This document shows, in pieces, positions 32,805 to 52,172 of a DNA stretch of 64,000 nt. Both the position numbers and the translations under genes were made by a program. Source of the DNA: Metapseudomonas otitidis (GTDB taxonomy: Bacteria > Pseudomonadota > Gammaproteobacteria > Pseudomonadales > Pseudomonadaceae); assembly GCF_900111835.1 (NCBI RefSeq), contig NZ_FOJP01000016.1, positions 62,001 to 126,000 on the forward strand. The letters run 5' to 3'. The notes under the pieces are model-generated. The model searched no databases, was not told the DNA's origin, and worked only from the letters and a program-made list of their open reading frames with translations. The stretch's first letter is position 1. Each line of letters starts with the position of its first letter.

Positions 32805-33833
32805 ATGAATAATAACTCGGATGCTGTCTTCGTTGTGTCTATTGCATTTGGTGGTCACTCACCAGAGCACGATGCCTCAATCGACTCCTTCTCCTATGTT
32901 TATGAATGCCTGAGGGAAAGTAGGGTATCCATAAATAACGTTTATTTTTTCGATATGCACGGTCGCGTGCATCGGCACGCCTACGACAAGCACCTATCGA
33001 CCTCGGACTACATGCGGCCACAAGCGGCAATGACTTATATCGAGGCGTTGGCTTGCTGGAAGGAAGAAAAAACATACATATTGAATCTTCTCCATGGGCG
33101 TCATGGTGAAGATGGAAACTTACAGGGTGCTGCGTCGCTTCTGGGGTTACAGGGAAGTTTTGGTTCGGTACTGGCGTCGAGTCTGTCGATGAGTAAGTTT
33201 CACATGGGGCACTATGCAAGAGGCGTCTGCCCCTCCCTGCAGATTCCACCCTCTGCCCTGCTGAAAGGTGGGGTATCGTTGACCCAAGCCTTGCGGGATG
33301 GTATCGATCCTGAGCGAAGCATTGTGATCAAGCCCAATGCCTCTGGAAGCTCTATCAACACCGAGCGCTATCCAAGTGCCATTGGCCATGAGGCCCTGAT
33401 GGACATCCAGTTGGAGCGGATGCGCGCCGACGGCGACGATGCCCTCATCCAGCAGTACATCGAAGGTGTTGAATATAGTGTCGGCTGCATAAAGACCGCG
33501 AACGGTGAGATCCGGGCGCTGCCCGTTGTGCGCATCACGTCAGAAACTGGATTTTTTGGATACCTCGAAAAAAATACGGTGGGCTCGGTAGTCAAGGAGT
33601 TGGTTAATGATGATGATGTCTTGGCTGAGGAGTTGCAGGTAATCGCTAGGACTCTTTTTGCTACTGTGGGTTTCTCCAGTATGTGCCGCTTCGATTTTAT
33701 TGTAAGAGCCGATGGCAAAATCTACTTCCTTGAGGCCAACTCCATCCCCGGCCTCATGAAAAATAGCCTATATCCAAAGATGCTGCGAGCCGCCGGTATC
33801 GGTATTGTGGATCTAGTCGCCGGCATGGCGTAG
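32805..33833 (+). CDS. D-alanine-D-alanine-ligase-like ATP-grasp enzyme
   Basis: This 342-residue cytoplasmic ATP-grasp ligase is related to Ddl, which joins two D-alanines for peptidoglycan. Visible Ddl features are AFGGHSPEHDAS (first D-Ala site with Glu and Ser), LHGRHGEDGNLQG, the ATP Lys in IVIKPNASGSS, and EANSIPGLMKNSLYPK for Mg and the second substrate. The omega-loop region reads GFFGYLEKNTVGS where DdlB-type enzymes have EAKY: the Lys is kept but the acceptor-site Tyr position appears to be Asn, suggesting altered second-substrate choice. AAGGA lies upstream of the ATG. It heads the cluster; it may be a resistance form of Ddl or a tailoring ligase. Confidence 0.82.
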   Translation: MNNNSDAVFVVSIAFGGHSPEHDASIDSFSYVYECLRESRVSINNVYFFDMHGRVHRHAYDKHLSTSDYMRPQAAMTYIEALACWKEEKTYILNLLHGRHGEDGNLQGAASLLGLQGSFGSVLASSLSMSKFHMGHYARGVCPSLQIPPSALLKGGVSLTQALRDGIDPERSIVIKPNASGSSINTERYPSAIGHEALMDIQLERMRADGDDALIQQYIEGVEYSVGCIKTANGEIRALPVVRITSETGFFGYLEKNTVGSVVKELVNDDDVLAEELQVIARTLFATVGFSSMCRFDFIVRADGKIYFLEANSIPGLMKNSLYPKMLRAAGIGIVDLVAGMA

Positions 33834-33921
33834 TCAACTTTATTTTTGCAGACTCTGGTGCGCATTTAATGCGTGAATCCCTATCGCCTACTAATTGTGG
33901 CGTAGTTATGCGGGGTGGCTT

Positions 33922-36900
33922 GTGGGGCACGAAAAAGTAGCAATCATAGGAATGTTTGGTCGACTCCCTGGGGCTGAAAATATCCATGAGCTGTGGCACA
34001 TGTTATTGGAAGGAAGAAACGGTACTCGCCGCTTCTCGTCTGATGAGTTGAAACAGCAGGGTGTTGCCGGCGCACTTTTGAGTGATGAGCGTTATGTACC
34101 TGTCCGAGGTGTTATCGGTAACGAAGAATATTTCGACTCCTCATTCTTCGGCTTTGCCGCGTTGGAAGCGGACTTGATGGATCCTCAGGCACGGCATGCA
34201 CTTGAATGCGCTTATGGCGCTCTCGAGGATGCCGGGTATGCTGATCCGGCTTACCGAACTGTCACCTCCACCTACGTATCGGTCAGTCGTTCCGAGTATG
34301 AGCATCATCTGCTCAAGACGCTGCCAGCCGAGATGCTAGCGGCACCCTATACGCTGGACGGAACCCTTCCTGACTTCGTCCCTTTGCGAATTGCCAACCG
34401 GTTGGGGCTGGAAGGGCAGAGCGTGCTGGTCAAGTCTGCTTGTTCAAGCTCGCTTCTGGCTGTACATCTGGCTTGCCAGGAAGTTCTTGGCGCAGAGGCA
34501 CCGATGGCGTTGGTCTGCTCCTCGGCGATTTCCTGGCCAACGCGGTCAGGGCGTATGGCTGTCTCGGGAGGTGTCATTTCCCGGGATGGCCTATGCCGGC
34601 CTTTTGACTCGGAAGCGAACGGCACGGTCAGTAGCGATGCCGTTATTGCCATATTGCTCAAGCGCCTGGATCTGGCACAGCGCGATGGCGACAGAGTCTA
34701 CGCGGTCATTAGTGCAACGGCCGCCAACAACGATGGAAATCGAAAGAGCAGCTTCACGGCACCCAGCGTTGAGGGGCAGAGGGATGTGGCCTGCGAGGCA
34801 TTGAGGAAGGCGGGATGCACTCCTGATGACGTCGGTTACATCGAAACACACGGTTCGGCGACGCTTGTCGGTGATCCTATCGAACTGGCAGCATTGGCTG
34901 AAGCCTATGTCACGGCGAGTGACGAAAAAATACCTATTGGTTCGCTGAAGTCGAATATCGGCCACACAGATACGTCCGCTGGCTTGGCGGGTTTGGTAAA
35001 GACAGCGCTTTGCCTGTATCACAGGACGCTCGTTCCTACTATCAATTACCACAATGCCAATCCGTTGATCGACTTGCCAGATATCCCATTTACGGTGAAT
35101 ACCCAGCGGCGAACCTGGCATGCAAAGCACAAGGCTGCCGTGCACTCGACAGGAATGGGGGGGACCAATGTCCACTGTATCTTGGAAGCCGTGCTACCGC
35201 AGCCCCAGGTTGTATCGTCCCCGCTCCCCTCCGAGCTGTTGGTTTTATCGGCGAGGTCTGCGGTGGAGCTTGAAAGGCTCACAGAGGCGCTGGCGACGCA
35301 CCTGCGCAACACAGCACCATTGAATGTAGCCGATATCGCCAAAACCTTACAGATGGGCCGTGAGGATTTCAGGTATCGGCGCAGGATCGTTGCTGTCTCG
35401 CTGGACGACGTACTGATGAAACTCACCCAACGGGAGAGCCCCGCAGTGAAGTCTTTCGATGAAAACGCTCGACGGGACAAGATAGCGTTCCTGTGCCCGG
35501 GGCTTGGCGTCAATGATTTTGCGCTCGCGCGGGCATTACTGAACACATCCAGTGTCTTCCGCGAGAGCCTGGAAGGTAGTTTCAGAATCCTCGATGTCCA
35601 ATTGGGTATAGACCTAATGGATGTGCTGAATGATGTTGCTGCCACGCAGGGTGCGCAGTCACTGGCATGGGGCAATGAGCAGAAACCTAGTCAGGTACTG
35701 AATGTCACTTATGCTCACCCGCTGATATTCTGCATTCAGCTTGGGCTGGCAGACCTGTGGGCTTCTGTAGGCATTGTGCCGGATTACATTGTTGGCTACA
35801 GCCTGGGCGAATACGTGGCCGCCACATTGTCCGGGGTCTTTTCGCGGGAGGATGCACTGACCCTGGTAGGCAAAAGAGCTCGCCTGATCGATCAGCAACC
35901 TAATGGCATGATGGTGGCTGTGGCGTTGCCCTACGCTCAGTTGCTTGATTACTGCATCGAAGGAGTGTCGATTGCCGCCGAGAACGCGAGCAGCCTGAAC
36001 GTTATCGCTGGTAGTGAATTGGCCGTCGGTGAAGTGTTGGAACAGCTTAGACAGCATCGTGTGTTCTTCAGCGTCATCCAGGCCGAGCACGCATTTCACA
36101 CGCCCTGGATGTCACCTGCCGCTTTTGAGCTGGAGCGCTTGGTGGCCAGCGTCAACAGGCACCAAGTGCAGATACCGTTTGTTTCGAATGTTACAGGTGA
36201 CTGGATCGATGATGAGCAGGCCCGCAGTGTCCATTATTGGGCAAAGCACCTGACATCGCCGGTGCGGTACTTGGACTCACTGAGAACCCTGGCTGGTGAA
36301 AAGGATCTTGCCTGCATCGAGCTTGGCTCGTCGGGGTATCTGGCCGATCTGGCCAAGTTGGTAACGCCGGCAAATGCCAGCCACATCATGACGACTTTCG
36401 ACAAGTCGGTTCAGGACGGTGTCTACGGACAATGGCTTGCCACATTGGGGGCTCTGTGGGGGAGTGGAGCGAGCGTCGATTGGCAGGGCATGGAGCGTTG
36501 TGCGGATGCGCGACGAGTCTCGCTGCCGACCTACCCCTACAGCCGCAAGCGGCACTTGATCGAAGCAAGTAACGTCACCTCAGGTCAGACTGTCAGTCAT
36601 CAACGCCTTGCCCAGGTTTCGTGGTCTCCAGTGGAAAACACCGAGGCTCAGGTCAGGGCGATGCGCGATGAAAAAGACAGTGAAGCGAGTGTTTCCTCGC
36701 ATGTCCGCACTATCTGGGCGCGAGCCTTTGGACGTGACGATCTTTCCAGCCAGAGCGACTTTTACGAAATCGGCGGTCACTCGCTGCTCGCCGTACAGCT
36801 TCTTTACTACATTCGGGAGTCGTTGAGTGTTGACCTGAACGTGGGTGATCTGCGCGCGAATCCGACACTGGGTGAGTTTATTCGGTTCGTCGAGCTGCGG

Positions 36901-38124
36901 CATCAGCGGCAACGTGACGAACACCTTGCGAAAGGGCACATTGCAGCAGAGGTTCTGGCCGCGCCCGAGCAGGATCGAGCTGCAGTGATCAGAAACTATG
37001 TGGTCGAAACGCTGCGGAGCCTTGCGGCCGACTGCGCCATTTCAGATGGTGCCAAAATAGAAAATCATGTTGTGTTGATACCGGACCTGACTCGGGTGTT
37101 CAAGCACGACCTAGGCCGTCCGGTGTATGCCCACGAGCTGGTAGCGCGAAATACCGTTGCTGAGCTTTGCAAATTGGTGCAGTCAGTTATCGGGGTTGAC
37201 GAAGGTGACGAGCACGGCGCCGAAACCACCGGCACGACGGCGACACAAACGCTCCGGCAAGGCACAACGGCTGCAGGGCTCAATCTGGGGGGGGGAGGGG
37301 CAAAGAATCCCCAGGCAGCCTTCATACTGTCATCGGCGCGCTCTGGGTCCACCCTGTTACGCGTCATGCTCGCAGGGCATCCCAAATTGTTCTGTCCACC
37401 AGAACTTCACTTGCTGGGCTACCCAACGGTCAAAGTACGTAACGAACATTTGAAGTCGGAACATTTTGGCAAAGGGCTGCAACGAGCGATCATGGAGTTG
37501 TACGGTATCGGTCCATCTGAGGCCGATTCAAAGGTGCGCTGCCTGGTCGAAAACAATGTTTCGATTGCTGAAACCTTTGCTCTGCTGCAAAGACTGGCCG
37601 CACCGCGGCTTGTCGTAGACAAGTCTCCAGACTATGCCGGCGACCCTGAAATTCTCAGAAGCACTCAGGACATGTTCGAGTCCTGCAAGTACATCGTGCT
37701 GACAAGGCACCCGGCCGCCGTGATCGAATCCTATGTGCGCAATCGAATCGGTGCGATTGCAACGCAGCGCTGGCGTGATCCCGTGGCGCAGGCGGAAGAT
37801 CATTGGTTCCGCTATTACAGCAATATCATGAACTTCGTCGGTTCACTCGCCGGGAATTATGTAGTCGTCAGGTATGAAGACCTAGTCGAACAAGCCGAAA
37901 TGACGATGCATCGACTTGCAGACTTCCTCAATGTCGATTTTCATCCGGCGCTGCTTCAACCTTACTCAGGAGGGCGGATGGTCGACGGGGCGGGTGATCC
38001 CAACTTCCATGAACACGATCAGATCGATAAATCGCTGAGCTATCGGTGGAAGGATGGCGGACTTGACTATCGCTTAAGCGATAAGGTCAGGGCATTGGCA
38101 AAAACAATGGGCTATGCAGTCTGA
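33922..38124 (+). CDS. Type I polyketide synthase with terminal sulfotransferase domain (KS-AT-CP-x-ST)
   Basis: This megasynthase of about 1400 residues has the following order. KS (about 5-430): Cys in VKSACSSSL at residue 174, His in ETHGSATLVGDPIE and KSNIGHTDTSAG. AT (about 520-830): active Ser 627 in GYSLGEY and EHAFHT near 720, a malonyl-type motif. Carrier domain (about 915-985): GGHSLLAV with Ser 954. An ACP-like segment (about 1015-1085) follows, ending VYAHELVARNTVAEL but lacking the attachment Ser. Last is a sulfotransferase (about 1125-1400): PAPS loop SSARSGSTLLRVML and 3'-phosphate motif VLTRHPAAVIESYVRNR. There is no KR, DH or TE. The start is GTG 33922, preceded by a GGGGTGG stretch; TTG 33895 is possible. 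Carrying an ST inside a PKS is rare; CurM of curacin is the classic case. Confidence 0.88.
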   Translation: MGHEKVAIIGMFGRLPGAENIHELWHMLLEGRNGTRRFSSDELKQQGVAGALLSDERYVPVRGVIGNEEYFDSSFFGFAALEADLMDPQARHALECAYGALEDAGYADPAYRTVTSTYVSVSRSEYEHHLLKTLPAEMLAAPYTLDGTLPDFVPLRIANRLGLEGQSVLVKSACSSSLLAVHLACQEVLGAEAPMALVCSSAISWPTRSGRMAVSGGVISRDGLCRPFDSEANGTVSSDAVIAILLKRLDLAQRDGDRVYAVISATAANNDGNRKSSFTAPSVEGQRDVACEALRKAGCTPDDVGYIETHGSATLVGDPIELAALAEAYVTASDEKIPIGSLKSNIGHTDTSAGLAGLVKTALCLYHRTLVPTINYHNANPLIDLPDIPFTVNTQRRTWHAKHKAAVHSTGMGGTNVHCILEAVLPQPQVVSSPLPSELLVLSARSAVELERLTEALATHLRNTAPLNVADIAKTLQMGREDFRYRRRIVAVSLDDVLMKLTQRESPAVKSFDENARRDKIAFLCPGLGVNDFALARALLNTSSVFRESLEGSFRILDVQLGIDLMDVLNDVAATQGAQSLAWGNEQKPSQVLNVTYAHPLIFCIQLGLADLWASVGIVPDYIVGYSLGEYVAATLSGVFSREDALTLVGKRARLIDQQPNGMMVAVALPYAQLLDYCIEGVSIAAENASSLNVIAGSELAVGEVLEQLRQHRVFFSVIQAEHAFHTPWMSPAAFELERLVASVNRHQVQIPFVSNVTGDWIDDEQARSVHYWAKHLTSPVRYLDSLRTLAGEKDLACIELGSSGYLADLAKLVTPANASHIMTTFDKSVQDGVYGQWLATLGALWGSGASVDWQGMERCADARRVSLPTYPYSRKRHLIEASNVTSGQTVSHQRLAQVSWSPVENTEAQVRAMRDEKDSEASVSSHVRTIWARAFGRDDLSSQSDFYEIGGHSLLAVQLLYYIRESLSVDLNVGDLRANPTLGEFIRFVELRHQRQRDEHLAKGHIAAEVLAAPEQDRAAVIRNYVVETLRSLAADCAISDGAKIENHVVLIPDLTRVFKHDLGRPVYAHELVARNTVAELCKLVQSVIGVDEGDEHGAETTGTTATQTLRQGTTAAGLNLGGGGAKNPQAAFILSSARSGSTLLRVMLAGHPKLFCPPELHLLGYPTVKVRNEHLKSEHFGKGLQRAIMELYGIGPSEADSKVRCLVENNVSIAETFALLQRLAAPRLVVDKSPDYAGDPEILRSTQDMFESCKYIVLTRHPAAVIESYVRNRIGAIATQRWRDPVAQAEDHWFRYYSNIMNFVGSLAGNYVVVRYEDLVEQAEMTMHRLADFLNVDFHPALLQPYSGGRMVDGAGDPNFHEHDQIDKSLSYRWKDGGLDYRLSDKVRALAKTMGYAV

Positions 38125-38138
38125 CGGAGTCTATCTAA

Positions 38139-38990
38139 ATGGATCTTATTGGCGTTGTAGGTGCAGGCACCATGGGCACCGGGGTGGCAATCAATGCAGC
38201 ACTCGCAGGATTTGAAGTCGTCCTTGTGGAAAAGGATACGCAAGCGTTTGAGGCTGCGCCAGGCAGGCTGCGCACGGCACTGCAATTGACTGCTTTGCTC
38301 GACAGGAGCAAGGTCGAGCATCTCGACAGTCAGCAGGATGCTCTTCGACGAATATCCATTGAGTCCTCCCTCGATAGGCTCGCGCAGGCCATGGTCGTGT
38401 TCGAGTGTATCTCGGAGAGCTTGCAGGAAAAGCAGGAATTGTATGAGGAACTTGATCGCATTTGCGCAAGGGATACTCTATTTGCCTCAAACACATCCTG
38501 CATAGAAATTAATGTACTGGCGCAGTTCACCCATCGCCCGAGTAAAGTGCTTGGTGTTCATTTCATGAACCCTGCCTCGTTGCGCCCCTTTGTTGAAATA
38601 ACAAAAGGGCGCAGCACCTCCGAGCAGACATTGAATATCGCGACCAAGGTGCTAGCAGCGCTTGGCAAGGACCATGAAATAGTCAACGACTCGCCGGGGT
38701 TTGTAATCAATCGCGTGTTGATGCTGGCAATTAACGAAGCAATCGGGGTTGTTGAAGAGCAAGTAGCCGATTGCAGGCAGGTCGACAACCTGTTCGAGAA
38801 ATGCCTGGGTCACAAAACGGGCCCGCTGGCCACTGCTGACTTGATTGGTCTTGATGTAATTGCCGATAGTCTGATTGTGCTGAGGAATCGTTTTGACAAT
38901 GGCATATATGAGCCGAAGAGCCTGCTGAAGGAGAAAGTGGCTCGCGGCGAGCTGGGCGTCAAGAGCAAGCAAGGGTTTTATAAATATTAA
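38139..38990 (+). CDS. 3-hydroxyacyl-CoA-dehydrogenase-like enzyme (FkbK-type)
   Basis: This 283-residue NAD-dependent dehydrogenase has the Rossmann motif IGVVGAGTMGTGVAINA, the catalytic His region VLGVHFMNPASLRPFVEI, the mid motif FASNTSCIEI and the C-terminal NDSPGFVINRVLMLAINEA. In methoxymalonyl- or hydroxymalonyl-ACP pathways such an enzyme (FkbK and relatives) oxidises the 2-hydroxyl side of glyceryl-ACP. Here it sits beside a free ACP, with FkbH- and FkbI-like genes in the same cluster, which supports that role. It starts 14 bases after the PKS stop. Confidence 0.88.
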   Translation: MDLIGVVGAGTMGTGVAINAALAGFEVVLVEKDTQAFEAAPGRLRTALQLTALLDRSKVEHLDSQQDALRRISIESSLDRLAQAMVVFECISESLQEKQELYEELDRICARDTLFASNTSCIEINVLAQFTHRPSKVLGVHFMNPASLRPFVEITKGRSTSEQTLNIATKVLAALGKDHEIVNDSPGFVINRVLMLAINEAIGVVEEQVADCRQVDNLFEKCLGHKTGPLATADLIGLDVIADSLIVLRNRFDNGIYEPKSLLKEKVARGELGVKSKQGFYKY

Positions 38991-39007
38991 GCACAGGAAA
39001 CCCAGAA

Positions 39008-39253
39008 ATGGATAGGAATACTATAGAGCAAAAAATCATGTGTTATGTGTGTGAGTTGGCGGGTGTCGAACGGATAGGAAAAACAGATGAACTGTTTTCA
39101 TCCGGACGTTTGACCTCGCTGAAGGCGTTGTCGTTGATCCAGTGGATGGAATCTACGTTCAGTATCGCAGTCGAAGGACATGACATCTCGCCCGACAACC
39201 TGAGGAGTGTCGAAGCCGCTTCCCGTTTCATTGAACTTAAGACTTCCAGATAG
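39008..39253 (+). CDS. Stand-alone acyl carrier protein (FkbJ-type)
   Basis: This 81-residue carrier protein has the helix-II motif LFSSGRLTSLKALSLIQWME. The phosphopantetheine Ser is in TSL, where most carriers have DSL. It is expected to carry the glyceryl and then hydroxymalonyl unit made by the FkbH/I/K-like enzymes. AGGAAA lies before the ATG. It sits in a tight operon between the dehydrogenase and the thioesterase genes. Confidence 0.85.
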   Translation: MDRNTIEQKIMCYVCELAGVERIGKTDELFSSGRLTSLKALSLIQWMESTFSIAVEGHDISPDNLRSVEAASRFIELKTSR

Positions 39254-39283
39254 CCTTTGGAACTTTATCGGGCGAGCCCTGTC

Positions 39284-40111: not shown

Positions 40112-40194
40112 ACAGTGTTGAGTCCGCCAAGACCATGAAGTTCTGCCGCACGTGAGGCAAAAGGCAGTCACGCCGATTGTTCAAGGAGTGTACA

Positions 40195-43100: not shown

Positions 43101-45135
43101 GAGCGCCACCGACCTGTGTTTGAACCAGCAGACGATTGTCAGTGACCTTTGCCTGACACTGTACGAAGGTAGCGCTGAGGTTGAATGCGAGTTCGAGTAC
43201 GCGAAAGACCTGTTTAGACAGGAAACCATCGAGCGCTATACCGACTACTTCCAACGACTGCTCAGCGGCATTGTGTCAGGTCAAAGTCTCCAAGTGGACG
43301 CCCTACCCATGCTGAGCGAAGCAGAAATCAGACGCCTACTGGGGCGGGCTGATCATTCAACCGCTGCGGGATATGGAAACCAGTCGCTGTATGACAGGTT
43401 TACGGATTTCGTGCAAAACCAGCCCCGCGCGATGGCCATCTGGTCTCCCGAAGGGAATATTACCTACAAGGAGCTCCATTCGGAAGTGGTCTCGCTTGCC
43501 CACCTACTCAAGGAGGCAGGGGTCGGTCCTGGGCGGCTGGTTCCGGTCATAGCCTCGGACAGCAGGCATGTGGTCACCGCGTGGATAGCGATAAACAGCA
43601 TCAGTGCGGTGTTTGTCCCGATTGAAGCCACATGGCCGGAATCAAGAGTGCTTGAAGCGACTGCCAGGTGCGCGGCGGACGTGGTAGTCGTAGCGGCCAA
43701 GCTTAAGTCTCGGCTGCAGGAACAATACTTGGTCATTCAATTGCCACTCCAGCCGGAACAAGTGATGGAGTCAACCGCCATCGATGCTGTGAGCTACGAT
43801 CCGGAGGCGGCGATCTACGGGGTTTTCACATCTGGGTCCACCGCGGCTCCGAAGTTGGCGATTGTCCCGCAACGAGGCATTAGCAACCGTTTTGACTGGA
43901 TGACAGCAGAGCTTAGCGCAGGTCAAGCGCCAATCACCCTGCAAACCACGACACATGTGTACGACAGCGCAGTCTGGCAGTTGCTGTGGCCACTGACGGT
44001 CGGTGGACAAGTTGTGATACCAACTGAAAACCTGGCGTTTGATATCGAGCGATTGTTGAGTCATATCGCGACGTTCAAGGTGAGCATCATTGACTTCGTG
44101 CCTTCGGTATTTGATGTGGTTGTTCAACAACTCATAGCGCGTGGTCAGCCGCTGCAGGCACTCAGTACTCTCAAGCACTTGATACTCGGAGGAGAGTCAT
44201 TGCAAGGGGCAGCGCTCAAACTCTTCGCCGAGCGCTATCCCGAAGTAACCCTGCTCAACCTGTATGGTCCAACGGAAGCCTCCATCGGCTGCATCTTCAG
44301 CACACTGCGCGACGTCGATCCACCGTACCCGATCGGAAAACCTATTCCCAACGTCAGTGCGTTTGTACTGGATCGTCGGCAACGCCTTTCTCCCCAGGGG
44401 ACGGCAGGTGAGTTGTACTTAGGCGGAGCTTGCGTCGGTCTGGGGTACTGGGGCGATGAGTCAGCCACTCAAGCGGCATTTATTACCAATCCCTATCGAC
44501 TCTTTTCAAATTCTCCAAAAATCTACAGGACGGGCGACCAGGTCAGGTGGCAAGGGGACGACCTATATTTCCTAGGGCGCTACGACGATCAAGTCAAAGT
44601 TCGCGGGCTACGCATTCAACCAGCTGAAATAGCTGAAAAACTGCTGGCACATCCGGATATCGACGACGTGGTGGTCGATGTGCGTCCTGTGAAAGGCAAA
44701 CCCGCATTGTGTTCGTGGATTCGCCCGGGTGTGCCCGAGGACATCAGACAGTATTGCCTGGGCTGCTTGCCGATTTCACTGATACCCGAGTACTTCATTG
44801 GTTGCGAGAATTTTCCAATTGCAGCCTCGGGCAAACTGAACAAGCGTGAACTGCCCGATCCGCCGGTGGTGGTGCCGTCTGAGAGACATCGTTCAGCTCG
44901 GCGCAGCACGGCAAAAATAGAGGTGCTCGCCGCACTTTGGGCTGAGGTGCTGGGAGTCGATAAATCAACGATTGATCATGATAAAAATTTCTTTGAGCAG
45001 GGTGGCAACTCGCTGTTGGCCATACAGTTGCTGCACCGCCTGAAAAAAAACTTTGGGATCAAGTTGTCGATCGCCGACATCTTCAGGTTCAGCCAACTCG
45101 AAGCATTTGCCAAACGCTACCTAGGAGATAACTGA
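40195..45135 (+). CDS. Non-ribosomal peptide synthetase, A-PCP-C-A-PCP
   Basis: This synthetase has about 1646 residues. A1 (about 10-500): core A3 YTSGSTGVPKG near 157, the specificity Asp in VDAGLMDIF at 202, GLGPTEST, FTGDMARK, and the final Lys in LSGKIDRR. PCP1 has GGDSLLAS with Ser 550. C (about 600-1030): HHLAADG near 738, intact. A2 (about 1070-1545): VYDSAVWQLLW with Asp near 1257, LYGPTEAS, Lys in ASGKLNKREL; its A3 motif is unusual (TSGSTAAPKLA). PCP2 has GGNSLLAI with Ser 1606. There is no E or TE domain. ATG 40195 has AAGGAG upstream; the TTG at 40177 is disfavoured. It starts with an A domain, so it can initiate a chain. Both A domains keep the Asp that binds an alpha-amino group; substrates are not predicted. 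Confidence 0.92.
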   Translation: MEVPGCNNDVSTVFDRFQQYVATHPHSPALVCDTCAWSYKELFRRVEALGSCICEAGISASGNVAIFIEQRSQAVLGILATIFAGRTWVALDAKAPAAHLQRVVAHAEIKLIITDTSLYSSAAALAGDSVKIMLHDQLPVGSVVPRPANDIAYIIYTSGSTGVPKGVFQSHQNLLRHIDAYKQSIHITRDDRVSLLPSTSVDAGLMDIFGALTSGAALHLFDVHAQGIEALPAWLNHREVTVYHSTPTLFRGLCTVAPADMVFPTIRVVVLGGEMAYETDFRHFSRRFTADAMLINGLGPTESTIALQAFYHTQDRVPEGTLCVGTPVPGMSVLLMDANRKVVAHEGELVLCSDALALGYWNDPESSEKAFVSTHDPDGKRLYFTGDMARKLNDGTFLHLGRKDNQIKLRGHRIEAGEVEAAIRRLECVAEVAVVKYRFASGLESLVAVVTSGEHAPVSTTSIICRLKQVLPTYMVPHNIVVVDMLPLTLSGKIDRRQVLEELTLDELPSIEVASANLTPLQQEVLDFCQKELGAGVGIDSNFFAVGGDSLLASRLLSVIRKRVNASCSLSAFFDAPTLRQWTSLMEESTSNVDASMSAPVFAQGKAPLSFSQEQIWISQQFSTEKSLYTLLYGLKLDGPLEITLLTQAFALLVQRHESLRGSVEVCEGMLFQSVRDAADLTFELKVIDTEPELHPQRLKEEIALISFAPQHELDGPLIKACLISNHSSEHYLIIALHHLAADGLAANTLFKDLGSIYRDLLAGAEIEPLVQPSSYLDYCRSQRRWMNSQDYKRHQQWWLEHLDGLPALALPTDFPRPSIPTFSVALHRFKLPAHLQAELKQVAAECAVTPYMLYLAAFALMLARCSGQEDFAVASPASGRLSMEHVDVVGTFVNPILVRIRVDEDLAPSVFISHIKQAVLASLDHQQFPVSHLTATCSDSRQTFSSSLFNVMLAVQKRPEWGLSSDQLSATDLCLNQQTIVSDLCLTLYEGSAEVECEFEYAKDLFRQETIERYTDYFQRLLSGIVSGQSLQVDALPMLSEAEIRRLLGRADHSTAAGYGNQSLYDRFTDFVQNQPRAMAIWSPEGNITYKELHSEVVSLAHLLKEAGVGPGRLVPVIASDSRHVVTAWIAINSISAVFVPIEATWPESRVLEATARCAADVVVVAAKLKSRLQEQYLVIQLPLQPEQVMESTAIDAVSYDPEAAIYGVFTSGSTAAPKLAIVPQRGISNRFDWMTAELSAGQAPITLQTTTHVYDSAVWQLLWPLTVGGQVVIPTENLAFDIERLLSHIATFKVSIIDFVPSVFDVVVQQLIARGQPLQALSTLKHLILGGESLQGAALKLFAERYPEVTLLNLYGPTEASIGCIFSTLRDVDPPYPIGKPIPNVSAFVLDRRQRLSPQGTAGELYLGGACVGLGYWGDESATQAAFITNPYRLFSNSPKIYRTGDQVRWQGDDLYFLGRYDDQVKVRGLRIQPAEIAEKLLAHPDIDDVVVDVRPVKGKPALCSWIRPGVPEDIRQYCLGCLPISLIPEYFIGCENFPIAASGKLNKRELPDPPVVVPSERHRSARRSTAKIEVLAALWAEVLGVDKSTIDHDKNFFEQGGNSLLAIQLLHRLKKNFGIKLSIADIFRFSQLEAFAKRYLGDN

Positions 45136-45136
45136 C

Positions 45137-46177
45137 TTGTCAGGACTCAAGAAAATCAAGTGCGTCATCTGGGACCTCGACGAAACCCTCTGGCACGGTG
45201 TTCTGGTGGAAGGCGGGGGTATTCATCTGAAGGATCAGATCCTCAAGATCATTCAGGAACTAGATCGCCGAGGAATTCTGCAGTCGGTAGCCAGTAAAAA
45301 TGATTCCGAGTTAGCCATGGCAGCAATTGAGCGTCATGGGCTGGCAGACTATTTCCTGTTTCCACACATCAACTGGGGCTCCAAAGCGCATTCACTGGAG
45401 CGCCTAAGCCAGCAGCTGAACCTGAGTCTCGACACCTTCCTGTTTGTCGATGATCAGGCCTATGAACGAGACGAAGTGAAGATCGCCCATCCCATGGTCC
45501 GCTGTATCGATGCAGCGGAGTATCTGGCACTGCCTACACTGCCGGCAATGATGCCTGAGTTCATCACCGAGGACAGCGCGTTGCGCCGCAGGCGGTATCA
45601 AGAGCAGCAGCGACGTGACCGAGACGAGCAAAACTTTAAAGGGCCGAGCGAGGCGTTCCTGGCATCGTTGAATATGGAAGTGGTCGTTTCGGTGGCTACT
45701 GAGCAGGATCTGCGTCGGGCGGAAGAGTTGACGGTCAGGACCAACCAGTTAAATGCCACTGGTGTTACGTACAGCTACGATGAACTGAACGACTTTTGTG
45801 ATTCGCCCGACCATCGACTATTGGTTTGCGAGTTGACAGACATTTATGGTTCCTATGGAAATATCGGCTTGTTGTTGTTCGAGCATGTCAACGACACGCT
45901 CTTCATAAAGATGCTGCTCGTCTCTTGTCGGGTAATGAGCCGGGGTATTGGTTCGATACTCTTGACCTACGCGATGAAGTACGCAAAGAGCAGAAAATTG
46001 AAGTTAATAGCCGAGTACAGACCAACCGGGCGAAACAGGATCATGCAGGTGACCTACGGCATGGCCAATTTCAAAACGTCAGGTGAGCGTGGCGATACGT
46101 TCTTGCTCGTCAACGACCTGGATAGCGTCCCTGACTATCCTGGCCACTTGAAAATCACCACGCCCACAGGCATTTGA
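45137..46177 (+). CDS. FkbH-like HAD-fold glyceryl transferase/phosphatase
   Basis: This 346-residue protein matches FkbH, which loads a glyceryl unit from 1,3-bisphosphoglycerate onto an ACP with loss of phosphate. The HAD motif I is CVIWDLDETLWHG and a later acidic motif is FLFVDDQAYERDEV. The C-terminal acyltransferase-like half includes RTNQLNATGVTYS, a family hallmark. The start is TTG 45137 with GGAG upstream; it follows the NRPS stop by one base. It is the committing step for a hydroxymalonyl-type extender in this cluster. Confidence 0.9.
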   Translation: MSGLKKIKCVIWDLDETLWHGVLVEGGGIHLKDQILKIIQELDRRGILQSVASKNDSELAMAAIERHGLADYFLFPHINWGSKAHSLERLSQQLNLSLDTFLFVDDQAYERDEVKIAHPMVRCIDAAEYLALPTLPAMMPEFITEDSALRRRRYQEQQRRDRDEQNFKGPSEAFLASLNMEVVVSVATEQDLRRAEELTVRTNQLNATGVTYSYDELNDFCDSPDHRLLVCELTDIYGSYGNIGLLLFEHVNDTLFIKMLLVSCRVMSRGIGSILLTYAMKYAKSRKLKLIAEYRPTGRNRIMQVTYGMANFKTSGERGDTFLLVNDLDSVPDYPGHLKITTPTGI

Positions 46178-46271
46178 ATCCACTGCGTGCGTGTCTTATT
46201 TATGCTCGTGGTTTTTAGTTAACAAACTTTCGGGTATGGGTGATGACCGCAACTTGATCCGGAGAAGGACC

Positions 46272-46880
46272 ATGCAACCAGAAGCACCAGTGGCGGGAAT
46301 CAAAAACAACGTCTCGCCGACCCCGGCAATGACGCTGTGGTTCACTGGCCTGTCCGGAGCTGGCAAAAGCACCTTGGCACAGGCCCTTCACACGCGCCTG
46401 CTTGATCAGGGCAGAACCTGCGTGATACTCGATGGTGATCACTTGCGGCAGGGTCTCAACAGCGACTTGGGATTTTCGGCTGTTGATCGCAGAGAAAATA
46501 TCAGGCGCGTGGCTGAAGTGGCGAAGATCTTCAACAACGTCGGGGTCACAGTCATTACTGCATTGATCTCGCCGATGGCGGACGATCGTCGGTTGGCAAA
46601 GTCCATCATCGGTGCAGCACATTTTCGTGAATTGTATATCTGTGCCAGCCTGGAAGTTTGTGAGGCGCGGGATCCCAAGGGCCTGTACGCCAAAGCCAGG
46701 TCGGGCTTGATTCCCGACTTTACGGGTATCTGCGCGCCTTATGAGCCTCCAAAGTACGCTGCGTCGGTAGTTCGTACGGATGTCGTGTCGATTGATCATG
46801 CAGTCGAGCAGTTGCTGACGATGGTTATCTCAAGCCCGCAGGATGATGCTGAATCGTTGCGCTGCGTGTATAACCGGTAA
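46272..46880 (+). CDS. cysC: Adenylylsulfate (APS) kinase
   Basis: This 202-residue kinase phosphorylates APS to PAPS. Walker A is FTGLSGAGKST, followed by VILDGDHLRQGLNSDLGFS, ENIRRVAEVAKI, TALISP and KGLYAKARSGLIPDFTGI, the full CysC signature set. The start at 46272 is chosen because GGAGAAGG sits just upstream; a longer frame opens at 46191. A PAPS-making kinase in the operon makes sense only if a PAPS-consuming enzyme is present, and the PKS here ends in a sulfotransferase domain. Confidence 0.93.
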   Translation: MQPEAPVAGIKNNVSPTPAMTLWFTGLSGAGKSTLAQALHTRLLDQGRTCVILDGDHLRQGLNSDLGFSAVDRRENIRRVAEVAKIFNNVGVTVITALISPMADDRRLAKSIIGAAHFRELYICASLEVCEARDPKGLYAKARSGLIPDFTGICAPYEPPKYAASVVRTDVVSIDHAVEQLLTMVISSPQDDAESLRCVYNR

Positions 46881-46893
46881 AGAGACAGTGAGC

Positions 46894-47415
46894 ATGAAGG
46901 ATGATAAGGGAGAGATTGAGCGGTACTTTCAGCAGTTGGGGATCAGCCGATCGATCATCGAAGAAAAAAAGCTTTCGTTGTGGTTGCCGCCCGACGAACT
47001 AATGGAAATAAAGGGGAAGGAGGCTGGCAGGTGTTATCTGCTGGACTCAAATGCTGCACAGGCCTGGCTCGATATGCAGGAGGCAGCCAATAAGGCTGGT
47101 GTGCAGCTTTATGCAATCTCAACCTATCGTAGTATTAGCTATCAAGCGGATATAATAAAAAGAAAGTTGAAACTTGGCCAGGAGATGAAAGACATCCTGA
47201 AAGTCAGCGCCCCGCCCGGTTACAGCGAACATCATTCAGGAAGAGCAATTGATATTGGTACACCAGGATACACTGATCTTGAGGTTGAATTTGAATTGTC
47301 AGGTGCATTCAAGTGGTTGTCGAGGCATGCATCTGACTTTAATTTTACGCTGTCCTTTCCACGGAATAATGTCCACGGTTACTCCTATGAACCTTGGCAT
47401 TGGCTGTTCAGCTGA
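46894..47415 (+). CDS. VanY-like D,D-carboxypeptidase/dipeptidase (M15B)
   Basis: This 173-residue zinc peptidase has the VanY domain. Zinc and catalytic motifs are YSEHHSGRAIDIG (His...Asp) and the C-terminal SYEPWHWLF. No signal peptide or membrane segment is visible, so it is probably cytoplasmic, unlike classical VanY and more like VanXY forms. In resistance systems such enzymes trim D-Ala-D-Ala ends or dipeptides. Paired with the Ddl-like ligase in the same operon it could give self-resistance, or act in maturation. The start is ATG 46894 (an in-frame GTG lies 6 bases before). Confidence 0.85.
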   Translation: MKDDKGEIERYFQQLGISRSIIEEKKLSLWLPPDELMEIKGKEAGRCYLLDSNAAQAWLDMQEAANKAGVQLYAISTYRSISYQADIIKRKLKLGQEMKDILKVSAPPGYSEHHSGRAIDIGTPGYTDLEVEFELSGAFKWLSRHASDFNFTLSFPRNNVHGYSYEPWHWLFS

Positions 47416-47447
47416 ACCTGCCCAGATAGTTACACAAGGAAATGTGC

Positions 47448-48578
47448 ATGAGGATTAGTGACGAAGGACTGTCGTTTTTGGTCGAGGCAGGCATGTTCAT
47501 TGATGAGCATATCCGGCCGCACGCGGGTACATTTGACAAGAAACGGATAATGCCCCGGAGCCTTCTGAAGTCGATGGCACGACAGGGATATTTTGGTCTC
47601 AACATTCCAAAAGAAGACGGCGGTTCAGGGCGCAACGCACTGGAGTACGGAGAGTTTACGGCACTGCTCGGTAGAGCATGTTCCTCCGTGCGGACTCTGT
47701 TGACCGTACATTGCTCGCTGGTTGCCGAGTCGATTGCCCGATGGGGGACGCAATGGCAAAGACGTGAATGGCTACCCGGCCTGCTCAGTGCAGAGACAAT
47801 CTGCGCGTTTGCCATCAGCGAACCCGCGCACGGTTCTGATATCAAGGGTATTGCAACCCACTATAGAAAATGTGGATCGGACTATGTGATCTCCGGCACA
47901 AAGAAATGGATCTCTTTTGGCGCCATTGCCGATTGTTATCTGTTGTTCGCAAGGTGCGAAGGGAAGATGTCGGCGTTCCTGGTTGATCGTGCGGCCACGG
48001 GGGTGCATGTGGAACCGATTGATAACCTGCTGTCGCAGCGGGCCTCACACTTGGCGCAGATCACCTTTAATGAGGTGGCTGTCAACAAGAACCAATTACT
48101 GGGAACAGAGGGCGGGGGAGACTTGCTGCTCATGTCTGCCCTTGATCACGGCAGGTTCAGCGTTGCCTGGGGGGCCGTGGGGCTCGCTAAGGAGGCTCTG
48201 GTGCAAATGATTGACTATGCCGAGTCGCGTGAACAATTTGGCAGCCGATTGGCGGACTTTCAGTTGATACAAGGTCTCATCGGCGATGGGGCGACTGCGG
48301 TGCATGCTGCTCAAGCCATGTGTGAACGTGCGGCATCACACCGGATGGCGCGTTCGTGCGATGCGGTCTATGAAACAACAATTGCCAAGTATCTTGCCGC
48401 CAGCACAGCGGTAAAGGTCGCGGAGCAGGCGTTACAGGTTCACGGAGCAAACGGCTTGAGCGGTGATTTTAGTGTCGAGAGGTTGTTTCGCGATGCCAAG
48501 GCACTGGAAATAATCGAGGGGAGTTCGCAGATGCAAAAGCTGATGATCTCCAGCTACGCCATGACCGTGGAGAAATAA
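47448..48578 (+). CDS. Acyl-CoA-dehydrogenase-like enzyme (FkbI-type)
   Basis: This 376-residue flavoprotein has the acyl-CoA dehydrogenase fold, with FAISEPAHGSDIKGIATHY, ISGTKKWISFGAIADCYL and LQVHGANGLSGDFSVERLFRDAKALEIIEGSSQ (FAD and substrate motifs). In FkbI-type systems the enzyme oxidises the acyl-ACP intermediate to the malonyl-type acid. With FkbH, J and K homologues present this is the best assignment. ATG 47448 has AAGGA at a better distance than ATG 47442. The IS427-type element is 16 bases downstream. Confidence 0.87.
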   Translation: MRISDEGLSFLVEAGMFIDEHIRPHAGTFDKKRIMPRSLLKSMARQGYFGLNIPKEDGGSGRNALEYGEFTALLGRACSSVRTLLTVHCSLVAESIARWGTQWQRREWLPGLLSAETICAFAISEPAHGSDIKGIATHYRKCGSDYVISGTKKWISFGAIADCYLLFARCEGKMSAFLVDRAATGVHVEPIDNLLSQRASHLAQITFNEVAVNKNQLLGTEGGGDLLLMSALDHGRFSVAWGAVGLAKEALVQMIDYAESREQFGSRLADFQLIQGLIGDGATAVHAAQAMCERAASHRMARSCDAVYETTIAKYLAASTAVKVAEQALQVHGANGLSGDFSVERLFRDAKALEIIEGSSQMQKLMISSYAMTVEK

Positions 48579-48656
48579 AACCTGTCCTGACTAGGCGGCG
48601 TTCTCATTTGATGTTGAAGGTGCTGACCGGTAGTCCCGTCGCTTTTTGGAGTAGGG

Positions 48657-49025
48657 ATGTGCCGCTATTGGCTGCGTGATGATCAGTGGCAGCGAATCAA
48701 GGAATTATTGCCTGGCAAATCCAGTGACCGTGGCGTGACGGCCAGAGATAACCAGAGGTTCGTCGAGGCGGTGCTTTGGATTGCTCGAACCGGCTCGCCT
48801 TGGCGCGATCTCCCAGAAGCCTATGGTCATTGGCATCGTGTGTATGTGCGGTATAGCCGCTGGTCCCGTAAGGGGGTGTGGCTACAGGTGATGGAGTCGC
48901 TTGCGGCTGACGCAGACGTTGAACACCTGATGGTAGATGGCAGCATCGTGCGGGTTCATCAGCATGGTGCGGCAAAAAAACCGATCAGGATGCCGAGGCC
49001 ATGGGCAAATCCCGAGGCGGATTGA
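48657..49025 (+). CDS. IS427-type transposase, first frame (OrfA)
   Basis: This 122-residue first part of the transposase begins MCRYWLRDDQWQRIKELLPG, with GSPWRDLPEAYGHWHRVYVRYSRW. The first catalytic Asp is near the end (MVDGSIVRVHQH). The frame passes an A7 run (after GCGGC) near 48974; a -1 slip there enters the second frame to give a full-length enzyme, the usual mechanism in this group. Without the slip it ends in NPEAD. Confidence 0.9.
   Translation: MCRYWLRDDQWQRIKELLPGKSSDRGVTARDNQRFVEAVLWIARTGSPWRDLPEAYGHWHRVYVRYSRWSRKGVWLQVMESLAADADVEHLMVDGSIVRVHQHGAAKKPIRMPRPWANPEAD
48974..48980 (+). other. Probable -1 ribosomal frameshift site in the IS427-type transposase
   Basis: A run of A residues after GCGGC is read GCA AAA AAA in the first frame; a -1 shift joins the second frame in phase. 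This matches the programmed slip of IS427 elements. Confidence 0.65.
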
Positions 49026-49408
49026 GTACCAAGATCCATGCGGCCGTAGACGCACTGGGAAATCCGGTACGCCTCCTGCTGACGCCAGGGCAGGCCTCGG
49101 AATACGGTCAAGCCCAAGCGCTGCTCGATGGCTTTAGCCCTGAGGCGGTATTGGCAGACAAGGGCTATGACTCGGATGCCTTCGTTGAAGCCATCCAGAA
49201 CCTGGGCGCCAAGACGGTCATCCCTTCAAGAAGAGACCGTTTGGAGCCTCGCGACTTGGATCTGCATCTCTACCAGGAACGTAACTTGGTCGAGCGCTTC
49301 TTCCAGAAGCTGAAACAATTCCGTCGGATCGCAACCCGGTTCGAACGACTGGCAAGAAATTATCAGTCGATGCTCAGCCTTGTATCCATCGTCATATGGC
49401 TAGCCTGA
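49001..49408 (+). CDS. IS427-type transposase, second frame (OrfB)
   Basis: This 135-residue second part begins MGKSRGGLSTKIHAAVDALG and carries the second Asp (VLADKGYDSDAFVEA) and Glu in NLVERFFQKLKQFRRIATRFE. It is read mainly by -1 frameshifting from the preceding frame; the fusion would place TDQDAEA between the two parts. It is intact and may be active. Confidence 0.9.
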   Translation: MGKSRGGLSTKIHAAVDALGNPVRLLLTPGQASEYGQAQALLDGFSPEAVLADKGYDSDAFVEAIQNLGAKTVIPSRRDRLEPRDLDLHLYQERNLVERFFQKLKQFRRIATRFERLARNYQSMLSLVSIVIWLA

Positions 49409-49433
49409 TTGAGAACACCCCCTAGGAGCTAAC

Positions 49434-50189
49434 ATGAAAACACTGAAGGACGAGGTACATGTCTGGTATTACCAAGGCCCGCCTATTGAACTCCAGATGA
49501 ACGAGACGCTCACCCTGAGCGAAGAAGAACAGTCTGTCGTGCGTGGACTATCAAGTGTGCAGGCGAAGTCGCAATACAGGCTTGCACATGGCTTGTTACG
49601 CATGCTCATCGGCCTGCACTTGGATGTTGATCCGCGCCGTTTCCAGTACAGCAATAATGAATATGGTAAGCCGGAAGTCGTCGGCCATGACATTCATTTT
49701 AGTCTCAGCTACACACGAAATTGTTTTGTGCTTGCGCTTAGCAGGGCACATGATATCGGCGTAGATGTGGAATGGCTAGACCCGCATTTTAATTATACCT
49801 CGATTGCTCGGCGGTTTTTCACCATGGAAGAGCAGTCCATGATGAACCCATTATTAGAGCCTCAGCGGCGCACGTTGTTTTTTGAGCTCCATACGTTGAA
49901 GGAGGCTTATGTAAAGGCGCTGGGAAAAGGCCTCTCGTATGGGATCGAAAATGTCGGGTTCGCGCCCTGGCCGCACCAGCAGTCCGTGTTTTCATGTGAC
50001 GATCCGAGCAATGCAAAGGTCAACGAGGCATGGACGTTCAGGAAGCTTCAGCTCATTCCTGATGTGATTGCAAGCGCTGCCGTCAAGGGGGCGCAGCCCA
50101 TAGCAATCGAGGTATTTCGTTTATGCAAGCGCGGGTACTTTCAGCTGTTGAATCGCTTTGCGAGGGATGCATCTAGTGCATACGCTTAG
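49434..50189 (+). CDS. Sfp-type 4'-phosphopantetheinyl transferase
   Basis: This 251-residue enzyme moves the phosphopantetheine arm of CoA onto carrier-protein serines, here most likely those in the PKS, the NRPS (two) and the free ACP. Motifs are HFSLSYTRNCFVLAL, IGVDVEWLD and the KEAYVKALGKGLS stretch with Lys and Glu. AGGAG just upstream comes from the CTAG target repeat plus GAG. The next gene overlaps its 3' end. Its presence makes the island self-sufficient for carrier activation. Confidence 0.93.
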   Translation: MKTLKDEVHVWYYQGPPIELQMNETLTLSEEEQSVVRGLSSVQAKSQYRLAHGLLRMLIGLHLDVDPRRFQYSNNEYGKPEVVGHDIHFSLSYTRNCFVLALSRAHDIGVDVEWLDPHFNYTSIARRFFTMEEQSMMNPLLEPQRRTLFFELHTLKEAYVKALGKGLSYGIENVGFAPWPHQQSVFSCDDPSNAKVNEAWTFRKLQLIPDVIASAAVKGAQPIAIEVFRLCKRGYFQLLNRFARDASSAYA

Positions 50190-51390
50190 CAGAATCATTC
50201 GCTCGCCACGGAACCATATAGTCGCTGGGCTGTTCATCGTTTCACTGGGCACCTACCTAGTCGCCCCTCTCTACGTGGTTCATCTGGTCGGGTCCCTTGG
50301 CTTGAGTGCGGCAGATGTTGGCACGCTCCTGATCATCACTGCCATTGCGCAGCGTGGGCTTACATTGCCAGTTGGCATGGCGATCGACAAAGTCGATGCA
50401 CGCTGGTTTCTGCTTGCCGGGCTTGGTTTCAGGGCGCTGTCATTTTTCGCCTTGGGGATGGCCGACTCATTTTCATTGTTGGCAATTTCCGCCGCGCTAG
50501 CTGGCAGCGGCACGGCCGCCTTTCAGGCGGCGGGGAAAACAGTGCTGTTGGAGCTCGACCCTGACAAGGCGCTGTCGTTATCCTTGCGAAACATGGCCAT
50601 CAATGCCGGTATCGCCCTTGGCCCTCTGGTCGGACTGCTGTTGACGCGCTACGACTTTTTCACCACCTGCATGATTACCAGCAGCCTGTACATGGCGGTC
50701 ATGGTTACCGAGGCTATTTCTTTGAGGCGCATGAAAGTGCGTGCGCTAGCATTGCCGAATGGGCGCTACCGTGATCTCTTCCTGCCTTTGAAGTCCCACC
50801 GCGCGAGATTCCTGCTATTTGCCAACTTCTGTTTTTTTGGGATTTTTTCCCTGTTTGAACTGGTACTGCCCCTGCACATCAAAGCGTCATATCCCGCCTT
50901 CTATGTTGGGGTTTTGTTTGCCCTCAATGCCATCGTGGTGGTGGCTTTTCAGCTTCCGGTTTCCCGTGTGATCACCAAGCATGATCTTGCGATTGGGTAC
51001 GGCTTCAGTCTCTTGCTTTGCTCTTTACTGGTGTTTTTCCTGTCCTCAATCTGTCCAGCGTCGTGGTCCCTTACATTATTTTTCTTCGGTGTTATTCTGT
51101 TCAGCCTTGCTGAGGTCTATCTGATGTTCATTATCGAATTACGTTTAGTTGCTTCGATAGGAGACGCTCCGACCGGCACGGCCCTGGGATGTTCTTCTTT
51201 AAGCGCAATGCTCGGGCTGTCATCAGGTCTGCTGCTGTTCGGGTGGATTTACGACCAATGGGCAGTGCAACAGGAACACTTCTTCTGGATGCTGCTTTCG
51301 TTGATCTGCCTTGTCATCGTCTTGCTGATCAATTTAGCTGAGCGCTGGACGAGCAAAGCCCCCAGAGGGGTGCTGCAGAAGGACTACTGA
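50167..51390 (+). CDS. MFS exporter of the biosynthetic cluster
   Basis: This inner-membrane transporter of about 407 residues has twelve hydrophobic segments and a motif-A-like loop GMAIDKVDARWFLLAG. Its AT-rich codons and tight overlap with the phosphopantetheinyl transferase gene place it in the cluster, and product export is the likely role. The start is unsure: ATG 50167, TTG 50158 or GTG 50176, the last with GAGGG at better spacing. It is the last cluster gene; nothing after it is biosynthetic. Confidence 0.85.
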   Translation: MHLVHTLSRIIRSPRNHIVAGLFIVSLGTYLVAPLYVVHLVGSLGLSAADVGTLLIITAIAQRGLTLPVGMAIDKVDARWFLLAGLGFRALSFFALGMADSFSLLAISAALAGSGTAAFQAAGKTVLLELDPDKALSLSLRNMAINAGIALGPLVGLLLTRYDFFTTCMITSSLYMAVMVTEAISLRRMKVRALALPNGRYRDLFLPLKSHRARFLLFANFCFFGIFSLFELVLPLHIKASYPAFYVGVLFALNAIVVVAFQLPVSRVITKHDLAIGYGFSLLLCSLLVFFLSSICPASWSLTLFFFGVILFSLAEVYLMFIIELRLVASIGDAPTGTALGCSSLSAMLGLSSGLLLFGWIYDQWAVQQEHFFWMLLSLICLVIVLLINLAERWTSKAPRGVLQKDY

Positions 51391-52130: not shown

Positions 52131-52172
52131 TCGCCGATCATGTCCCAGCGAGTGGTGTAACTGAGGGAAACT

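Follow-up and report, generated by a model that had tools for sequence, protein, structure and literature searches.

A candidate acquired NRPS-PKS cluster for a small O-sulfated peptide-polyketide in Metapseudomonas otitidis

What would an assembly line release if a polyketide synthase (PKS) module without a ketoreductase (KR) were combined with both an in-line sulfotransferase (ST) and a hydroxymalonyl extender cassette? The question is raised by a locus of Metapseudomonas otitidis (contig NZ_FOJP01000016.1, positions 62,001 to 126,000; this whole stretch of 64,000 nucleotides is called the window, and coordinates are those of the window unless stated otherwise), where twelve co-directional plus-strand genes at 32805..51390 join these two rare PKS features in one KR-less module next to a non-ribosomal peptide synthetase (NRPS). 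We propose, with a probability of about 0.55, that they form an acquired cluster for a small O-sulfated peptide-polyketide. Pfam and NCBIfam scans recover the domains as first named, which upholds the description of twelve one-strand cluster genes in the initial annotation, made from the DNA letters alone. Its view of the product as a sulfated or sulfate-derived peptide-polyketide is supported by the enzyme set of the cluster; its opinion that the structure is not deducible holds insofar as no structure is shown, and gives way insofar as one can infer an extender of the hydroxymalonyl kind, a pair of amino acids and a single O-sulfation. The genes follow one another in the order given here, with an insertion sequence (IS) between the acyl-CoA dehydrogenase and phosphopantetheinyl transferase genes:

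32805..33833, +, Ddl-like ATP-grasp ligase (Pfam PF07478/PF01820; alignment)
33895..38124, +, PKS with ketosynthase (KS), acyltransferase (AT), acyl carrier protein (ACP), serine-less carrier-like domain and ST (Pfam; ST closest to the CurM ST 4gbm)
38139..38990, +, 3-hydroxyacyl-CoA dehydrogenase family enzyme (HCDH; Pfam PF02737/PF00725)
39008..39253, +, free ACP (Pfam PP-binding, E 5.2e-6), adjoining HCDH and included in the count of twelve
39257..40111, +, thioesterase (TE; Pfam PF00975)
40177..45135, +, NRPS with adenylation (A), peptidyl carrier (PCP) and condensation (C) domains, A-PCP-C-A-PCP, without a terminal domain (Pfam)
45137..46177, +, FkbH (glyceryl-ACP forming; TIGR01686, 253.9 bits, cut-off 146.65)
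46191..46880, +, adenosine 5'-phosphosulfate (APS) kinase, for supply of 3'-phosphoadenosine 5'-phosphosulfate (PAPS) (Pfam PF01583; TIGR00455, 205.3 bits, cut-off 138.7)
46843..47415, +, M15 (VanXY-like) peptidase (Pfam PF02557; PDB relatives)
47442..48578, +, acyl-CoA dehydrogenase family enzyme (ACAD; Pfam)
49434..50189, +, Sfp-type phosphopantetheinyl transferase (PPTase), HetI model best (Pfam ACPS; NF042922, 103.3 bits, below the cut-off of 370)
50158..51390, +, exporter of the major facilitator superfamily (MFS; Pfam MFS_1)

No broken gene was seen among the twelve, and the cluster is real, and apparently intact and acquired. Three genes probably start downstream of the listed positions, namely the PKS at GTG 33922, the NRPS at ATG 40195 and the M15 peptidase at ATG 46894, the last of which places the M15 gene 13 bases past the end of the APS kinase. 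The KS, AT, ACP and ST motifs were located by script and those of the C, PCP, TE, APS kinase and M15 proteins by eye from the translations.

The ST is homologous along its full length to the STs of the CurM/OLS type (4gbm, E 1.6e-68; 4gox, E 1e-66) and retains the RSGSTLLRVML and DPNF stretches, and its PAPS-binding stretch is present. In the PKS we recognised KS, AT, a single ACP (GHSLL) and ST. The stretch between ACP and ST can be aligned with the carrier of CurM type found ahead of the ST in Calothrix, but its serine is gone in the window as well as in two relatives, one from a Byssovorax metagenome-assembled genome (MAG; locus L063, JANYGI010000007.1) and the other from Reinekea sp. G2M2-21 (locus L133, NZ_JADPQG010000013.1); the serine-less stretches of all three have DL and PVY-x-x-E in common. 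A Pfam scan finds no KR in these three PKSs, and two controls have one.

The comparison set came from a scan of genome contigs with an ST-alignment profile, which yielded 281 relatives; the best 80 of the 281 were used for locus comparisons. A KR match was obtained for 68 of the 73 ST proteins that have 900 or more residues upstream (66 of 71 after removal of two duplicate contigs, L031/L097 and L032/L098), the five without being those of the window, Byssovorax and Reinekea, one on a short contig (L088) and one in an NRPS (L039). An ST tree was made from 88 rows (the 80 loci less three, as two contigs are present as L031/L032 and one as L005, with ten others and the window). Between RM-x-DG and DPN there are 2 residues in three of these rows (window, Byssovorax, Reinekea) and 9 in the other 85. 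In the tree the window groups with Byssovorax with support of 100/96, and both with Reinekea with 94/43. Compared with the CurM/OLS systems, the window thus differs in the missing KR, the serine-less carrier-like domain before the ST and a loop shorter by 7 residues, and further in its separate PF00975 thioesterase and its hydroxymalonyl cassette.

The histidine after DPNF, a presumed catalytic residue of the ST, is kept in the window; since it is missing (mostly replaced by arginine) in 23 of 90 ST rows, mainly cyanobacterial, no weight is placed on it and it was not used as evidence. Its presumed catalytic role may merit another look. In-line STs also occur in other proteobacterial NRPSs (L038 1-6726, L039 5638-14172, L033, L037 and L015 18057-21704), with an A-PCP-ST-C arrangement in L038 and L039; together with those of L035 and L036 they form an ST branch of their own, with 7 rows. 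The NRPS-ST of Agrobacterium vitis lies close to cysD/cysN and an ectB gene.

Which extender unit this module would use is suggested by the neighbouring genes. FkbH scores above its curated cut-off and shares its operon with the free ACP and with HCDH- and ACAD-family enzymes, which we take to be FkbK/ZmaG-like and FkbI/ZmaE-like, respectively. In the Fkb and Zma pathways an FkbH/ACP/HCDH/ACAD set without a methyltransferase leads to hydroxymalonyl-ACP. No methyltransferase family was found by Pfam among the twelve genes, the rest of the genome not having been searched for one, and hydroxymalonyl-ACP is therefore the expected product, with the free ACP probably carrying hydroxymalonate.

The AT agrees in part with such a unit. 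According to the parts of PMC4207774 on the AT of ZmaA, in ATs that take ACP-bound units GYSFG replaces GHSXG and hydrophobic residues replace RXR. The window AT reads GYSLG where ZmaA reads GYSFG and where CurL, Byssovorax and Reinekea carry a histidine, and its RXR positions are F-F-S, as compared with F-G-A in Reinekea, T-C-K in Byssovorax, K-T-K in the malonyl-CoA-using CurL and M-C-M in ZmaA (for Reinekea and Byssovorax the residues were read by counting from the catalytic histidine of the AT); they are uncharged in the window, yet the third is a serine where a hydrophobic replacement would be looked for. By this comparison the window fits an AT for ACP-bound units best, and Byssovorax is ambiguous.

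Whole genomes were chosen for 50 of the 80 loci, and 49 of them were searched, for FkbH alone and not for the whole cassette. A strong match (E <= 1e-50) was found in six, comprising both short-loop genomes besides that of the window and four of the 47 long-loop ones. In both short-loop genomes FkbH lies within a full HCDH-ACP-ACAD-FkbH set. This suggests, on very few cases and with FkbH also serving other pathways, that the short ST loop accompanies FkbH more than expected; this extender and a distinct short-loop ST are found together again in genomes belonging to two phyla.

The initial annotation knew of no described cluster with this gene set; the core of the set, however, is not unique. 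The highest ST identity, 52%, is to the Byssovorax locus, where PKS, TE and NRPS are adjacent and in the order of the window, with the same PKS and NRPS architecture and full-length identities of 40% (PKS) and 36% (NRPS). Unlike in the window, its hydroxymalonyl cassette is on another contig, and Ddl, VanY, APS kinase and PPTase find no match in the stretches compared. The Reinekea locus has KS-AT-ACP-ST, FkbH, ACP, ACAD, HCDH and APS kinase in one place; its genes run Asn-synthase, A-PCP, A, amidohydrolase, KS-AT-ACP-ST-TE, FkbH, ACP, ACAD and HCDH, followed by an IS66 transposase, a transporter, the APS kinase and an inositol-phosphatase-family gene. It differs from the window in the TE fused to the ST, the separate A-PCP and A proteins, the Asn-synthase and amidohydrolase genes and the lack of a Ddl or VanY match. 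The window HCDH is 46% identical to that of the Byssovorax cassette and 41% to that of Reinekea, and the ACAD 37-38% to both; the TE is weakly similar (21-24%) to the ST-fused TE of Reinekea and the PKS-adjacent TE of Byssovorax.

When the window proteins were compared with the 80 ST loci (E <= 1e-6), FkbH and HCDH were matched in one (that of Reinekea) and the APS kinase in three. As a check, the initial annotation had proposed a search for PKS-ST, APS kinase, Ddl and VanY together in other genomes: the APS kinase is thus found again beside such STs, and Ddl and VanY in none of the 80. No published description of this gene set was recognised in the literature searched, a comparison with MIBiG or antiSMASH not being included, so that the word 'new' is unproven. 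Bulgecin and other sulfated products of Burkholderia or Pseudomonas were considered and dropped, the parts of PMC5472815 that bear on them giving no matching gene set.

Two residues would be contributed by the NRPS. The adenylation codes, read by eye at the GrsA positions, are DAMHVGGIAK for A1 and DSWDIGLIGK for A2, and those of Byssovorax are DAMHVGGLAK and DSWDIGVIGK. With codes so nearly identical, the products of the window and Byssovorax probably share both residues; the Reinekea codes differ from those of the window. With its aspartate at position 278, A2 could accommodate a basic side chain.

Taken together, a pathway of six steps can be proposed. FkbH, the free ACP, HCDH and ACAD would make hydroxymalonyl-ACP, and the NRPS would build a dipeptidyl-S-PCP. 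The KS would accept the dipeptide and the AT would load hydroxymalonyl on the sole serine-bearing carrier of the PKS, where condensation would give a beta-keto, alpha-hydroxy acyl thioester, as no KR is present. Given a hydroxymalonyl unit and the missing KR, the chain on the ACP would bear a beta-ketone and an alpha-hydroxyl, the latter being the likely target of the ST, which in the fourth step would sulfate this extender-derived hydroxyl with PAPS supplied by way of the clustered APS kinase. Up to this point we consider the course rather probable. The PF00975 thioesterase, probably the release enzyme, would then free the chain, and the free alpha-sulfooxy-beta-keto acid would be expected to lose CO2 and become a peptidyl sulfooxymethyl ketone (peptide-CO-CH2-OSO3-), in which the sulfate would be a built-in leaving group and which could remain an electrophile or close a ring. 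This outcome is put forward tentatively, the decarboxylation being drawn from chemistry; a literature search on sulfooxymethyl ketones gave nothing on the topic by title among the matches listed. In the last step the MFS protein would export the product, while the Ddl-like ligase and the M15 peptidase would shield the producer or trim the product. Of all this, the sequence itself shows which enzymes are there, that their motifs are intact, that the ST is of the short-loop type and that the core recurs; how substrates flow, where the sulfate is placed, whether CO2 is lost and what Ddl and M15 do are deduced. If the ST does act on the alpha-hydroxyl, this would be an untested release chemistry with a possibly reactive sulfate ester, and the sulfooxymethyl ketone, if true, would be a genetically encoded electrophile made by a new PKS termination chemistry.

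Two described systems help to place this proposal. Zwittermicin A has an FkbH/ACP/HCDH/ACAD-kind cassette like that of the window. It differs in that the window has a single KR-less PKS module with an ST, reads HAFH and not GAAH in the AT, and shows no second (aminomalonyl) set among its twelve genes. The AT of ZmaA, like that of the window, has a tyrosine in the GxSxG motif and lacks the cationic RXR residues, as set out in the relevant parts of PMC4207774. The haliamide (hla) system of Haliangium ochraceum is, like the window, an NRPS-PKS hybrid that ends in an ST and has no KR in its last module; unlike the window, it has the TE fused to the ST, lacks an AT in module 5 as well and uses a malonate extender, and the parts of PMC6274090 that describe it mention neither an FkbH set nor Ddl or VanY.

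Several points weigh against the proposed cluster product and its pathway. With the loop columns removed, a quick ST tree keeps the window with Byssovorax (97) and places Reinekea separately, so that Reinekea may have reached the short loop independently; its KS, too, is only 34.5% identical to that of the window. The window AT has the malonyl-like HAFH where ZmaA has GAAH, the Byssovorax AT keeps a lysine at one RXR position, and four long-loop genomes have strong FkbH matches. In the Byssovorax MAG the HCDH-ACP-ACAD-FkbH set is on a separate contig (G666:C87), of whose 113 kb the 54 kb examined contain no match to the window PKS, and the genome has other PKSs that could use the cassette. The adenylation codes matched no nameable substrate, hand-over from NRPS to KS is assumed, and neither Ddl nor VanY has a counterpart in the 80 ST loci. 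Finally, the ST-TE module of haliamide lacks a KR, and haliamide nonetheless carries a terminal alkene (PMC6274090, in the part on this module), so that a reduction in trans might occur here as well; a hydroxymalonyl unit would then yield an aldehyde.

Among the alternatives, the one that survives best is that the ST merely decorates, adding to the extender hydroxyl a stable sulfate ester which is kept in the product with no leaving-group chemistry. Such a route needs just the enzymes present, and the exporter and APS kinase suit a plain sulfated product. What makes it rather doubtful is that in CurM the ST activates the chain before release, as has been proposed for haliamide too in the corresponding parts of PMC6274090, and that the TE directly follows the ST in both Reinekea and Byssovorax.

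A termination like that of CurM, in which the beta-keto group would be reduced in trans, the ST would act on the beta-hydroxyl and decarboxylative elimination would give an enol and, with the hydroxymalonyl unit, an aldehyde, appears unlikely. It draws on the closeness of the ST to CurM/OLS, on the KR-less last module of haliamide (same parts of PMC6274090) and on the presence of an HCDH-family enzyme. This enzyme is, however, already used by the extender pathway, and the short loop is common only to the window and its two relatives, the other 85 rows being long. The window TE, a separate protein, is of the PF00975 type, unlike the PF00561-type hydrolase to which the ST of the Calothrix control is joined, yet the G490 control combines ST, KR and a fused PF00975 TE.

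The Ddl-like ligase and the M15 peptidase could, for their part, be an ordinary glycopeptide-type resistance pair that came to lie on the island without any relation to the cluster. By alignment, the ligase still has Arg, Asp, Glu and Asn of the ATP-grasp fold and, in the carboxylate pocket, Ser-Leu. In its omega loop Lys-Asn stands in place of Lys-Tyr, the second residue being Tyr in two housekeeping enzymes and His, His, Arg and Thr in four plasmid homologues. Among the matches listed (25 of 33 families) it stays under every NCBIfam cut-off, including that of the housekeeping Ddl model TIGR01205 (146.9 against 245.65). A Ddl query matched 284 of 298 genomes of the family, and among the matches listed all except the host's own gene are 27-34% identical and presumably ordinary Ddl paralogues. 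The peptidase retains SEHHSGRAID and EPWH and has no signal peptide evident by eye.

Both enzyme types are known from Van operons, and as in VanC/VanG-type resistance (D-Ala-D-Ser ligase and VanXY) a Ddl-family ligase is combined with a VanXY-like M15 peptidase in which no signal peptide is evident. The closest M15 relative in the plasmid collection (53%) is a stand-alone Pantoea plasmid gene near GNAT genes, and neither enzyme was seen in the two related loci, all of which would suit an unrelated resistance pair. Nonetheless, none of the Van models among the matches listed is reached by the ligase or the peptidase, both being far below the cut-offs (109.9 of 495 for the VanG ligase, 49.3 of 250 for VanXY), and by Pfam the twelve genes include neither a two-component nor a racemase gene. 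The Ddl gene is moreover the first of the operon and the M15 gene lies inside it, directly behind the APS kinase, so that we regard an unrelated pair as improbable; producer protection or product trimming is plausible for both proteins. A Ddl homologue of Paraburkholderia phymatum, 41% identical, also adjoins a transporter and an NRPS-like gene. The pair is a concrete hint, open to test, that the target lies in the cell wall. The fuller picture, in which short-loop ST termination would yield a peptidyl sulfooxymethyl ketone aimed at D-Ala-D-Ala enzymes with the variant Ddl and M15 as shields, is improbable as well. On a Rhodococcus plasmid (L016 11962-15383) a Ddl-like gene, a PLP enzyme, a C39 peptidase and an M15 peptidase stand in a row.

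As to the origin of the cluster, the AT-rich island claimed at the outset is borne out by a drop in GC from about 0.70 to 0.52-0.56 over some 31.3-53.6 kb, an island of about 22 kb with a GC of about 0.53, and by the GC of third codon positions (GC3), which is 0.51-0.64 in the twelve cluster genes against 0.70-0.91 in four flanking open reading frames (ORFs). One of these (27554-29137, GC3 0.70) has no Pfam match and may be a non-gene; the other two of six neighbour ORFs measured are the left IS (0.77) and an ORF at the island edge (52984-53421, 0.47). The bracketing by IS elements also stands, with an IS5-family element on the left and, on the right, the same element again, inverted and internally deleted, together with a partial IS3-family transposase, to which an internal element absent from the initial annotation is added:

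31533..32644, -, IS5-family element at the left edge, transposase ORF 31598-32578 (Pfam DDE_Tnp_1; NCBIfam transpos_IS5_4, 358.6 bits; extent by self-BLAST)
48595..49421, +, internal IS5-family element with two overlapping transposase ORFs, 48657-49408 (Pfam; end sequences)
51463..52098, -, partial IS3-family transposase (NF033516 model positions 174-369 of 369, second half only)
52166..52428, +, inverted copy of the left IS5 with an internal deletion (self-BLAST 96.5% over 229 bp, 100% over 37 bp)

The internal element is flanked by CTAG on both sides and, though intergenic, may alter transcription of the PPTase and MFS genes. That it silences them in a decaying island, so that no product is made, is improbable: its position directly at the PPTase ribosome-binding site and the lack of enrichment of promoter-like sites (7 found, 12.6 expected) would fit, but the genes are open, the motifs intact, and another host PPTase could substitute. 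Terminator-like sites are at chance (18 found, 17.4 expected), and no RNA family reached its gathering score. In agreement with the first description no pathway-specific regulator lies inside the island; the LysR gene at 53662 was rejected as one, its GC3 of 0.878 being that of the backbone and its location being elsewhere in three relatives.

The left flank is kept in three of 17 other genomes of the genus, the match stopping near 31267. The LysR and PhoD-like genes on the right (53662-56541), adjacent here, are at separate places in these three genomes, and the island is therefore at a rearranged junction; a clean empty site was not obtained. The flanking left gene encodes a penicillin-amidase family protein (29018-31276, Pfam), with 77-78% DNA identity in the three genomes. 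Carriage by a plasmid was rejected, since in a megablast search with the island 11 plasmid records came up whose best place, out of a further 7 in these records, was in each case IS-end sequence only (query 18716-18801).

The ST itself is rare around the host. As a query it matched one of 398 genomes of the family (E <= 1e-20), the host itself, and ten of 369 of the class (E <= 1e-15), the host included, the best other being 45% identical; nine records matched in the plasmid collection, none at 60% identity or more. An ST-only scan of viral contigs found no match, a weak test in that it used query-specific 8-mers. Around the relatives, 108 genomes of the Byssovorax family (E <= 1e-40) gave no ST match beyond the centre and 293 of the Reinekea order (E <= 1e-35) gave one, at 36% identity.

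Two small ORFs at the right edge of the island (52456-53421; 85 residues on the plus and 145 on the minus strand) have no Pfam match, and the second has a GC of 0.43. Further along the same contig, at contig positions 149808-158107 and about 24-32 kb past the end of the window, there are long frames with weak carrier-domain matches, perhaps another NRPS.

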